From: Campylobacterota bacterium
Lineage (GTDB): Bacteria; Campylobacterota; Campylobacteria; Campylobacterales; Arcobacteraceae
Reading direction: 5' to 3'
DNA length: 49,597 bases
Assembly: GCA_003643835.1 (NCBI GenBank)
Contig: QMKX01000010.1
Coordinates: 1 to 49,597, forward strand
Under the pieces are notes generated by a model. That model was given only the letters and a program-made list of their open reading frames with translations. It ran no database searches and was not told the origin of the DNA. Position numbers and translations under genes: made by a program. Shown here one piece after another: positions 3,645-9,055 of the stretch (positions are counted from its first letter, which is position 1; the number at the start of each line of letters is the position of its first letter).

Positions 3645-4201
3645 TATGCGACATATCAAACAGAGCAAAACTTCCTACAATATATGGTGAGTTTTTGGTC
3701 CAAGCATTTAAACAAAACGACAAAGAACATCTGGTAATTTATACAAAAAATATGCCAAAAACCCCAAATGTTCGCATACATAGCGAATGCCTAACGGGTG
3801 ATGCAATATCGAGCATCAAGTGCGACTGTCAAGCACAACTAAACTTTGCTTTAGATTATATCAATACTCACGGTGGAGCTGTGATATACTTAAGACAAGA
3901 GGGGCGAGGTATCGGACTTTTCAATAAAATTCAAGCATATGCTCTACAAGATACTGGCTTGGATACGGTGCAGGCAAATCATCAACTTGGGTTTGATGAT
4001 GATATGCGAGATTATAAAATAGTTGATTTTATATTAGATTATTATAAGATAAAACAAATCAATCTACTAACCAACAATCCAAGAAAAATATCAGCCATAA
4101 AAATTAAAATAATAAAAACAATACCAATACACACAAACCCTACAACCAAAAATAAAGATTATCTAAATATCAAAAAAACAAAATTGGGTCATAGTTTGTG
4201 A
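3641..4201 (+). CDS. ribA: GTP cyclohydrolase II, riboflavin biosynthesis
   Basis: RibA opens the imidazole ring of GTP and releases formate and pyrophosphate, the first committed step of riboflavin synthesis. The 186-residue product shows HSECLTGD followed by SIKCDC, whose three cysteines bind the catalytic zinc, and [11 protein letters not shown], the phosphate-binding and catalytic block. The C-terminal LLTNNPRKI is also typical. It is the stand-alone form, with no fused DHBP synthase. An earlier ATG at 3608 would overlap glyQ by 37 bases. The ATG at 3641 overlaps the glyQ stop as ATGA and has AGAGG ten bases upstream, so I prefer it. Confidence 0.93.
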
Positions 4202-5834: not shown

Positions 5835-6035
5835 TTATTTCATATTGTATTTTTGTTTGAACTTGTCTATTCGTCCGGTGGCATCTACAACTGTCCGTGC
5901 ACCTGTGAAAAATGGATGACAAGATGAACATATATCTATATTCATGGTGTCTGTATTTGACTTGGTTTCAAAACTATTGCCACATGCACAAGTGACCTTA
6001 CAATCCACGAAGTTGGGGTGTATATCTTTTTTCAT
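5835..6035 (-). CDS. rpmE: Ribosomal protein L31 (zinc-binding form)
   Basis: L31 sits in the central protuberance of the 50S subunit and bridges to the 30S head. The 66-residue product begins MKKDIHPNF, and the four zinc ligands are all present (C16, C18, C36, C39), so it is the zinc-containing form, not the paralogue made under zinc starvation. HPFFTGA and the basic C-terminus also match. The ATG at 6035 follows AAGGACAATT. A -10-like TAAAAT on the minus strand about 20 bases upstream is a likely promoter. Confidence 0.97.
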
Positions 6036-6059: not shown

Positions 6060-6158
6060 TCGTTTTTTACTGAAACTTTCTCACAAACTTCATCTTGTCT
6101 TTGAAAGAGCATAAAAATCAATGTTTTGTCTGTTTGCATTACTTTTATATTTTTTTGA

Positions 6159-6164
6159 TACAAT
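6159..6164 (+). promoter_or_regulatory. Probable extended -10 element of the restriction-modification operon
   Basis: TACAAT is preceded by TG plus one base and a run of seven T, the usual Campylobacterota promoter form. The predicted start near base 6171 would leave a leader of only about 16 bases. That leader holds a complete three-codon frame, ATG AAT AGA TAA (6175-6186), behind AAAGGG and directly abutting the ATG at 6187. Ribosomes could reach the operon's first gene by reinitiation. Confidence 0.45.
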
Positions 6165-6186
6165 ACTTAAAGGGATGAATAGATAA

Positions 6187-6414
6187 ATGAAACAAATAAC
6201 AATAATACTAACAAATCAAGAGTGTCAAGATTTTTTAAAACCAATAAATGGAAAAGGTGGAGGACAAGATTTAGTAAGAGAGCTACAAGGTCTTATAGTA
6301 AACAATCAACTAAAGCTTGATGATACAATGTGTGGTAAAATCGTTCGATATACAAAAGAATATAAAACCGGGGGATTTCAAAATCAACTTGAAATAATAA
6401 AAAATAAATTATAG
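6187..6414 (+). CDS. Small protein with two GGxQ motifs, first gene of the restriction-modification operon
   Basis: The 75-residue product has two similar half-motifs, GKGGGQDLVRELQ near residues 22-34 and KTGGFQNQLEIIK near residues 60-72, each a short glycine turn followed by an amphipathic helix. This looks like an internal duplication. I have an impression of similar small GGFQ proteins in other bacteria but cannot name a function. The stop codon overlaps the GTG of the methyltransferase (TAGTG), so it belongs to the operon. It could be a control protein or a helper of the enzyme pair, or unrelated; it has no recognisable helix-turn-helix. The ATG has no ribosome binding site of its own at normal distance. 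Confidence 0.65.
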   Translation: MKQITIILTNQECQDFLKPINGKGGGQDLVRELQGLIVNNQLKLDDTMCGKIVRYTKEYKTGGFQNQLEIIKNKL

Positions 6415-7568
6415 TGCAAATTACAGAGCAAAACCATTTAAAATATAAAAACAGGATCAATTTAGGCAGTTATTACACAGATACAAAACATGTTGATACT
6501 GTTTGGGATTTTATAGAGCCACATATCGATGATGATTTTATTGTATTGGATACTTCTTGTGGTTATGGTAATTTTTTACAAAAAAAGAGCAACAACAATA
6601 AAAAAATAGGAAATGATATTGACGAAGTTGCTATCTCAAGTTCATATAAAAATATAGATGATGCTTGTTTGTTTAATCACAATGCTCTAAGCGAAGTAAG
6701 TAGAAGAAAATACAAAATAAATGAAAATGATAAGCTGTGTATCGTAGGAAATCCGCCATATAATGATAGAACTTCAATCATCCGAAATAATATAAAACAA
6801 ATTAATTTTAATATAGATAACAATATCAAAACAAGAGATTTGGGTATTTCATTTTTGAGATCATATGATAAATTAAATGCGGATATAGTTTGTGTTTTAC
6901 ATCCTTTGTCTTATTTGATAAAAAAAACAAACTTTAATTTACTTAAAGAGTTTTCAAGAAACTATAAACTAATAAAAGGTAAAATTATCAGTAGTGGAAG
7001 CTTTAGACAAACATCAAAAAATATGCAATTTCCTATCGTTATAGCTCTTTACAAAAAGGAGAAAGACGGAATGAATTGTGACTATATAAAACATTTCAAA
7101 TTTGAAATCCAAAAAGATCTGTTTTTTAAGCAAAATAGTTTTGATTATATATCTACTTATATAAAAAAATATCCTAACAAATATATACAAGCTGATAAAA
7201 ATTCTATTTTATTTTGGACCATAAGAGATATAAATGCTCTAAAAAGAAACAGAACATTCATTGAAAAAGCAAGTTCAAACACAATTGTTGTTGATAAAAA
7301 AAAGTTAGATTACTATATATATATTGATGTATTTAAGCGATATATTAGCCATGTTCCATACTATTTAGGCAATTGTGATGTGATAATCAACAATAGTTTA
7401 TTTCTAAAGTTTAAAAAATATTTTATATTAGATAGTTTATTTTATCAACCTAAACTAAGACAGTATTATGCTCAATTTGATTTTAGTCAGACACACTATA
7501 AAAACCTTGCAAAGGAAAAAATACAATTATATTTAAAACAATTATTAGGAGAACATTATGCAAATTAA
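6414..7568 (+). CDS. Type II N6-adenine DNA methyltransferase
   Basis: The 384-residue protein is the modification enzyme of the island. A SAM-binding motif X region (GSYYTDTKHVDTVWDFI) lies near residues 18-34, motif I (VLDTSCGYGNFL) near 44-55, and the catalytic NPPY motif typical of N6-adenine methyltransferases is at 113-116. The C-terminal two thirds have no motif I recognise and probably hold target recognition. The start is a GTG overlapping the previous stop. The end overlaps the next gene by 11 bases. Codon use is more AT-rich than in neighbouring housekeeping genes, which suggests recent acquisition. If the partner is a PabI-type enzyme, as its residues suggest, the expected target is GTAC. 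Confidence 0.88.
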   Translation: MQITEQNHLKYKNRINLGSYYTDTKHVDTVWDFIEPHIDDDFIVLDTSCGYGNFLQKKSNNNKKIGNDIDEVAISSSYKNIDDACLFNHNALSEVSRRKYKINENDKLCIVGNPPYNDRTSIIRNNIKQINFNIDNNIKTRDLGISFLRSYDKLNADIVCVLHPLSYLIKKTNFNLLKEFSRNYKLIKGKIISSGSFRQTSKNMQFPIVIALYKKEKDGMNCDYIKHFKFEIQKDLFFKQNSFDYISTYIKKYPNKYIQADKNSILFWTIRDINALKRNRTFIEKASSNTIVVDKKKLDYYIYIDVFKRYISHVPYYLGNCDVIINNSLFLKFKKYFILDSLFYQPKLRQYYAQFDFSQTHYKNLAKEKIQLYLKQLLGEHYAN

Positions 7569-8325
7569 TTTAGCAAACGAAAAAGAAAAAAGTATTGAAG
7601 TTAAAATCCCATTAACAACAACATCAGGGAAAATTAGAATAAAAAAACGGAGTTCTATTTTAGATTATGGACTACCATATGCTTCTAGAAGCAACCCTTT
7701 TTTGCAAAATAATTATGTTGAATGGCAAATTGGTTATGATATACACAAAACTAATAAAAACTTTAATCAAACTACATTAGAAACGATTACATTTGAAGCA
7801 TACAATGGTAAAAATAAATCTTTATATGAATTATCAGAATATTTATACTATTTTTCCAAATGGAACATTATCAAAGAAAAAGAATTAATCTTATTAAAAA
7901 ATTATATTATAAGCATTAATGACGATAATTTACTAAATGAACATAAACATTGTCAAATAAAACGAACTCATCCAAATAAAAAAGAAATTAATGGGATAAA
8001 ATTTAATGCCTTGACGATAGAATATCCCCAGCTAGTTTATCAATTTGGAAAGTTTGAAATTATAGCAGAAGTTACTATTAGAGAAAAACAACGAGCTGTC
8101 GGAACCCAACCTATGCTGTATTTTTGTTTTCCAATAACAGAATTAAAATCATCCATTTCATTATTGGGTCGTTGTGCTAACATCAAGGAGATAGCATATT
8201 TTGTATTTGATAAAAATAATTATTTTATAATTTTAGAAATGCTAAAAATTTTTGGCATGCTAAGTCCATCACATAAAGCAGATACTCTTGCTATCATAAA
8301 TACCGTATTGCGTGGTTATAAATAG
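7558..8325 (+). CDS. Probable PabI-family restriction enzyme (adenine DNA glycosylase, likely GTAC)
   Basis: The 255-residue product follows the methyltransferase with an 11-base overlap and has a good AGGAG before its ATG. It lacks PD-(D/E)XK, HNH and GIY-YIG motifs. It does keep the arrangement of the PabI family: E55 and Y60 (EWQIGY, spacing 5, like PabI E63 and Y68) and near the C-terminus H239 and D242 (SHKAD, spacing 3, like PabI H211 and D214). Basic residues precede the first pair in GKIRIKKR. The PabI numbers are from memory. PabI excises adenine from unmethylated GTAC instead of hydrolysing the phosphodiester bond, and leaves abasic sites. Assignment rests on spacing and context, not on an alignment. 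Confidence 0.7.
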   Translation: MQINLANEKEKSIEVKIPLTTTSGKIRIKKRSSILDYGLPYASRSNPFLQNNYVEWQIGYDIHKTNKNFNQTTLETITFEAYNGKNKSLYELSEYLYYFSKWNIIKEKELILLKNYIISINDDNLLNEHKHCQIKRTHPNKKEINGIKFNALTIEYPQLVYQFGKFEIIAEVTIREKQRAVGTQPMLYFCFPITELKSSISLLGRCANIKEIAYFVFDKNNYFIILEMLKIFGMLSPSHKADTLAIINTVLRGYK

Positions 8326-8367
8326 TGAAAAATATCTCAAGGCATTATAACTTTCAGATTTTTTAGA

Positions 8368-8373
8368 TAAAAT
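8368..8373 (+). promoter_or_regulatory. Probable -10 element for the DUF3108 gene
   Basis: TTTTTTAGATAAAATGCC carries the TAAAAT core behind a T run, 16 bases before the ATG at 8390. The same string, TTTTTAGATAAAATG, precedes the tRNA gene at 38.4 kb. It opens the run surE, mltA and following genes. Confidence 0.5.
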
Positions 8374-8389
8374 GCCACAAAGGATAAAA

Positions 8390-9055
8390 ATGTTTAAAAA
8401 GGTATTGATAATTATAGCGATAGTAGGTTCTATATATGCAAAACAAACAGTGCTAAAATACGATGTGAGTTTCGGTATATTTTCAGATATCGGCACCATA
8501 ACTTCATATTTTGACAAAAGTGCCAGCACATATAAAATCAAAGCGATAGTAGCAACTTCAGGGTTAGCAAGTAGTTTAAGTGGTGGTTTGGTAGAACAAT
8601 ACGAAAGTGTTGGCAACATAATCGATGGCAAACTAGTGCCTACAAAATATGTCAAATCAGCAAAAACAAAAAGCAAACACAAAATCCGCACATACACATT
8701 TGACCATATCAACAAAGTAGTGTATTATCAAAGGTCAGGTAAAGAAAAAGTTAAATACAAGTTTTATACTAAAGAAGATGTATTAACTTTGTTTATAAAC
8801 TCAAGCGAAACGATAAGAAATAGTCCTGCAGGAAAGTTGCTCAAATTTAAAGCAGTGGGTTCAAGCAAAAACGACGGTTTGATAACAGTTCAAAAAAGAG
8901 CAGATGGCAAGTTTGCTATAGTTATAAACCAAGATATATTCAACAGCAAAAAAGGTGAATTGGTTGTTGATATACAGAGCTCTGGCATATGGAAAAAGGC
9001 AGTTTTGAAAGATGTTATGATGTATGGTGATATTACAGCAAAGATAAGAAAATAG
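8390..9055 (+). CDS. Periplasmic DUF3108 domain protein
   Basis: The 221-residue product starts with a signal peptide (MFKKVLIIIAIVGSIYA) and then a beta-rich domain with the DUF3108 pattern: KYDVSFGIFSDIGT, a lipocalin-like run of strands, and DGLITVQ towards the C-terminus. The family is found in the envelope of many proteobacteria and has no established activity. An in-frame ATG six codons earlier (8372) lies inside the promoter region. The ATG at 8390 has AAGGAT at proper distance. The gene ends three bases before the surE start codon, so the two are probably cotranscribed. Confidence 0.75.
   Translation: MFKKVLIIIAIVGSIYAKQTVLKYDVSFGIFSDIGTITSYFDKSASTYKIKAIVATSGLASSLSGGLVEQYESVGNIIDGKLVPTKYVKSAKTKSKHKIRTYTFDHINKVVYYQRSGKEKVKYKFYTKEDVLTLFINSSETIRNSPAGKLLKFKAVGSSKNDGLITVQKRADGKFAIVINQDIFNSKKGELVVDIQSSGIWKKAVLKDVMMYGDITAKIRK

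Follow-up and report, generated by a model that had tools for sequence, protein, structure and literature searches.

A 49,597-nucleotide stretch of an Arcobacteraceae genome very probably encodes a functional type II restriction-modification system that belongs to the PabI (HALFPIPE) family, judged by its sequence and a structural model. The stretch, hereafter the window (GenBank assembly GCA_003643835.1, contig QMKX01000010.1, positions 1 to 49,597, forward strand), is contig 10 of the 1.43-Mb draft genome (40 contigs) of a Campylobacterota bacterium. The system comprises a small gene (S), a methyltransferase gene (M) and a restriction gene (R), all with intact frames:

6187..6414, plus strand: S, small protein of 75 amino acids, first gene of the S-M-R unit (open reading frame; homologs beside M.PabI genes)
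6414..7568, plus strand: M, adenine-N6 DNA methyltransferase of the bacterial M.PabI family, predicted product GTm6AC (PADLOC MTase_II, family identity, NPPY)
7558..8325, plus strand: R, PabI-family (HALFPIPE) restriction DNA adenine glycosylase/apurinic-apyrimidinic (AP) lyase, predicted site GTAC (PF09522, match to 7cfa, fold, residues)

Family membership, fold, conserved residues and the avoidance of GTAC are direct observations of this analysis.

Family and Fold of the Restriction Enzyme

By sequence family, modelled fold and residues, R is a PabI/HALFPIPE restriction DNA glycosylase. An earlier note, made from the DNA letters alone, had proposed a PabI-like nuclease beside a methyltransferase; Pfam, PDB sequence, fold and residue matches bear this out. 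The profile comparison suggested there gave a strong match to Pfam RE_R_Pab1 (PF09522; E = 5.3e-40, 136.7 bits, cut-off 25). A PDB sequence search aligned R residues 12–252 with R.CcoLI of Campylobacter coli (PDB 7cfa) at E = 4.6e-50 and retrieved R.PabI of Pyrococcus abyssi at E = 6.5e-14. The spacing of the E/Y and H/D pairs, on which the note had built, is weak evidence by itself, but the family match at these E-values is far beyond chance. An NCBIfam search with R returned no match and a PHROGs search nothing significant.

The AlphaFold model of R, built with 16 aligned homologs, has a mean predicted local distance difference test score (pLDDT) of 92.8 and a predicted template modelling score (pTM) of 0.88. 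The predicted fold is HALFPIPE, as the note had expected, and a PD-(D/E)XK match is absent from the Foldseek and VIA-align results. Foldseek returned 16 matches at E < 0.001, all of them R.CcoLI or R.PabI chains. In VIA-align, the model superimposes on 7cfa with Z 26.2 and a root-mean-square deviation of 2.7 over 231 residues, and on PabI chains with Z 21–23; the best remaining structure reaches only 2.9.

Active Site and Recognition Residues

Residues were compared in an alignment of 34 sequences, with the numbering anchored on R.CcoLI Y52. The functional roles of the R.CcoLI residues are published (PMC7806768). Its catalytic triad Y52/H222/D225 corresponds to Y60/H239/D242 in R, and the AP-lyase group D53/N67/K71 to D61/N83/K87. 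All ten residues proposed to read the bases in R.CcoLI (K17, R19, E47, Q49, I50, Q158, Q164, M166, Y168 and F215) are identical in R (K25, R27, E55, Q57, I58, Q178, Q184, M186, Y188 and F232). The triad of R.PabI is Y68/H211/D214; E63 reads guanine, is required for cleavage and lies outside the triad (PMC7806768, PMC10273834). The pairs E55/Y60 and H239/D242 that had been picked out in R are present and align with E63/Y68 and H211/D214 of PabI. The assignment of these four PabI residues to the active site holds for Y68, H211 and D214 and fails for E63, a guanine-reading residue. The HpPabI enzyme of Helicobacter pylori has Y60, D61, H237, D240 and K90, a numbering nearly that of R (PMC12366791).

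Partner Methyltransferase

By sequence, M belongs to the bacterial M.PabI family. It shares 42–67% identity with 21 other members and 46% with the M adjoining R.CcoLI; the R of the locus that supplied the latter equals the 7cfa sequence except for two engineered mutations. The PADLOC model MTase_II matched M at E = 3e-80. The gene has a GTG start, and its product carries a motif I-like DTSCGYGNF and NPPY at residues 113–116, in agreement with the N6-adenine methyltransferase with motif I and NPPY described earlier. At least 21 of the 22 M proteins in the alignment keep N113-P114-P115-Y116. The open reading frame coordinates confirm the reported 11-base overlap of M and R (7558–7568). In the published bacterial arrangement M precedes R on one strand (PMC4615327), and the window agrees with it.

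Avoidance of GTAC

Observed tetramer counts were divided by a maximum-order Markov expectation. In the source genome, where the counts cover 450 kb of the 1.43 Mb, GTAC occurs 97 times against 833 expected, and the ratio of 0.12 is the second lowest of 256 tetramers. The PabI-bearing congeners have ratios of 0.16 (G001) and 0.10 (G003), and six other Arcobacteraceae without PabI have 0.80–0.92. Comparable GTAC avoidance was reported for Helicobacter (PMC10273834). GTAC avoidance tracks PabI carriage, which indirectly supports GTAC as the site.

Several points weigh against a working system with this site. A further genome of the genus, G002, in which PabI was not detected, also avoids GTAC (0.26). 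ACGT is avoided still more, with 0.09 in the source genome and 0.01–0.09 across the genus; a cause was not found, and further palindromes are also under-represented in the genus. GTAC avoidance therefore does not prove causation by this gene pair and could partly stem from a different or previous GTAC system. In the structural alignment, R is 44% identical to R.CcoLI, so that the predicted GTAC specificity depends on the conserved residues. The source genome is also a draft of 40 contigs.

Proposed Mechanism and Alternatives

The chemistry of R (base excision and lyase activity), the site and the methylation are predicted with high confidence by analogy to the biochemistry of R.CcoLI, R.HpyAXII and R.PabI. 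M would methylate the adenine of GTAC on the host chromosome, yielding GTm6AC. An R dimer would bind unmethylated GTAC in incoming DNA and flip the adenine out. Y60, H239 and D242 would hydrolyse the N-glycosidic bond of the adenine, and the backbone would not be cut directly. As in R.CcoLI, K87 may then attack C1′ of the abasic site and break the strand by beta-elimination (AP lyase). The outcome would be double-strand breaks that are difficult to religate.

One alternative is a silent system, in which R is intact in sequence but unexpressed or inactive and only M is at work, methylating GTAC on its own. R genes of the PabI family are frequently broken (PMC4615327), and in the sister genome G001 the R at a second locus is frameshifted and the copy at the site of the window is a remnant. 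The R of the window, however, is full length, has every active-site residue and overlaps M in an operon-like manner, and GTAC is strongly avoided; a silent system is very unlikely. A PabI-fold R could also have drifted to a recognition site other than GTAC, and M along with it. The identities to the R.CcoLI system (44% for R, 46% for M) would allow for this, but all ten proposed GTAC readers are unchanged, GTAC avoidance follows gene carriage and GTAC is the only site that the family recognises so far, according to a 2025 paper (PMC12366791). Such a drift is very improbable. An ordinary phosphodiesterase of the PD-(D/E)XK, HNH or GIY-YIG type, as most type II enzymes are, can practically be dismissed: in the PDB sequence search with R, a Shedu chain appeared at E = 0.05, but Pfam and every strong PDB or fold match point to the PabI family.

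Comparison With Known Systems

The predicted PabI-family system shares with R.CcoLI and its M the HALFPIPE fold, the triad, the GTAC-reading residues, an AP-lyase lysine in an insertion after the catalytic tyrosine, and M upstream of R on the same strand. The insertion is longer in the R of the window (K87 vs. K71). The R.CcoLI locus occupies a different chromosomal site, and an S homolog was not seen in the short flank examined. R.HpyAXII/M.HpyAXII (HpPabI) agrees in family, gene order and a near-identical residue numbering; it differs in that an S gene is not described there. R.PabI/M.PabI (PDB 2dvy, 3waz) is alike in fold (Z about 22) and triad, and GTAC is the site of PabI. R.PabI differs in lacking the insertion by which the lysine is aimed at the abasic site, and at moderate temperature it works chiefly as a glycosylase. 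In the archaeal lineage of PabI, M and R are arranged tail to tail, unlike in the window. A block on Campylobacter plasmids (e.g., pSKBC1-2, NZ_CP125385.1) has the same three genes in the same order. It differs by its location on conjugative MOBP plasmids, and its R and M are 40% and 49% identical to those of the window.

Genomic Site and Its History

The approximate extent of the inserted block was taken from the rpmE-DUF3108 junction in G003 and from remnants of the R 3′ end in G001 and G003. The site comprises:

5835..6035, minus strand: rpmE (ribosomal protein L31), left flank (PF01197, E = 4.7e-30)
6075..8371, no strand: inserted S-M-R block, approximate extent
8372..9055, plus strand: DUF3108 protein, right flank, followed by surE (PF11306)

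The guanine-plus-cytosine content is 25–28% in S, M and R versus 33% in the flanks. All four genomes of the genus keep the DUF3108 right flank. In G003, rpmE is directly joined to a second DUF3108 copy truncated to its 5′ part (about 3990–4126 of its stretch), which shows the arrangement without the block. The full DUF3108 gene of G003 is preceded by a short stretch similar to the R 3′ end. In G001, an R remnant (residues 218–251) lies ahead of the DUF3108 gene with a spacing of 68 bases, equal to that in the window. The truncated DUF3108 copy of G003, together with the full copy elsewhere after an R remnant, is suggestive of an insertion with target duplication and a later rearrangement. A search of the window for direct repeats flanking the block, as left by target duplication, found only short AT-rich repeats that are possibly due to chance.

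G001 and G003 have a further PabI gene adjoining a gene that we take, from reading the open reading frames, to be queA; the name purB used below has the same basis. At the queA locus of G001, M is intact and the R frame is broken by the loss of one base just behind a run of seven A (about 8084–8096 of the G001 stretch). This one-base deletion could be a mutation, phase variation or an assembly error. In G003, the PabI gene at queA is cut by the contig end. On these sequences, the simplest reading is an old insertion that the ancestor already carried, that has since decayed in two lineages and that is intact in the window.

The Small Third Gene

The S open reading frame, overlooked in the earlier note, ends with a stop codon that overlaps the M start codon by 1 base. 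The gene appears undescribed in the literature searched, and a term search of the 2015 family survey (PMC4615327) found no mention of it. Comparisons of S with Pfam, PHROG and PDB gave nothing significant. A broader family of small restriction-linked proteins similar to S was not found in the collections, and no link is claimed.

In a sample of 397 Campylobacterota genomes, S homologs (E of 3e-5 or better) occurred in seven other genomes, and M in 68. S directly adjoins an M.PabI homolog in six of the seven. Four Helicobacteraceae genomes have the order M-S-N6_N4 methyltransferase-HNH, with R reduced to a C-terminal piece. The methyltransferase and HNH genes stand between M-S and the R remnant, an arrangement that looks like the replacement of R by a second restriction system. 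G197 has purB-M-S and G233 has M-S, both with R absent. In G355, S is solitary and M-R is on a separate contig. Among 72,556 plasmids scanned, S, M and R each matched the same 14 conjugative Campylobacter plasmids and no others, hosted by Campylobacter jejuni and C. coli. One annotated record shows the order S-M-R, and the coordinates of the other 13 are consistent with it. Phage records and viral contigs contained no S homologs. S was not found in 15 genomes with distant PabI homologs, nor in 299 genomes of the phylum of one alphaproteobacterial PabI bin; both results come without a positive control and hold at that sensitivity only.

Since S accompanies M even where R has been lost, a role with M is likelier than one with R alone. 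The gene order prompts the guess that S probably works together with M, in control or stability. It is possible, at a little short of an even chance, that S is a true third component in one branch of bacterial PabI systems (S-M-R). It would control or partner M, move with it despite loss or replacement of R, and thereby let the unusually toxic base-excising systems establish, including on conjugative plasmids.

Distribution and Significance

Base-excision restriction is known from few enzymes, mainly of Helicobacter, Campylobacter and some archaea. The window adds an intact Arcobacteraceae example in a small genome, with GTAC avoidance separating PabI-bearing from PabI-free relatives and a site history (insertion, remnants and a second copy elsewhere) that is readable in sister genomes. 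The conserved S beside M offers a testable lead on the tolerance of so toxic an enzyme. The novelty is modest and consists of the occurrence in Arcobacteraceae, for which no report was found in the literature searched, and of the S gene; the family itself is already known.

According to a 2023 review, the family occurs in Helicobacteraceae/Campylobacteraceae and in a few archaea (PMC10273834); a paper of 2015 also lists Brachyspira, Mycoplasma, Mucispirillum and Caloramator (PMC4615327). When one genome per species was scanned, R homologs with 42–72% identity turned up on contigs labelled Rickettsiales, Poribacteria, Spirochaetes, Oscillospiraceae, Nautiliaceae, Planctomycetaceae and others; most of them have M upstream. 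This suggests, by sequence homology, a wider range than published; most of the new homologs are from metagenome bins, and their host labels need care. Phage records contained no R homologs. The local observed/expected ratio of GTAC around the newly found homologs varies from 0.00 to 0.94. The conjugative Campylobacter plasmids with PabI systems are a plausible vehicle of spread.
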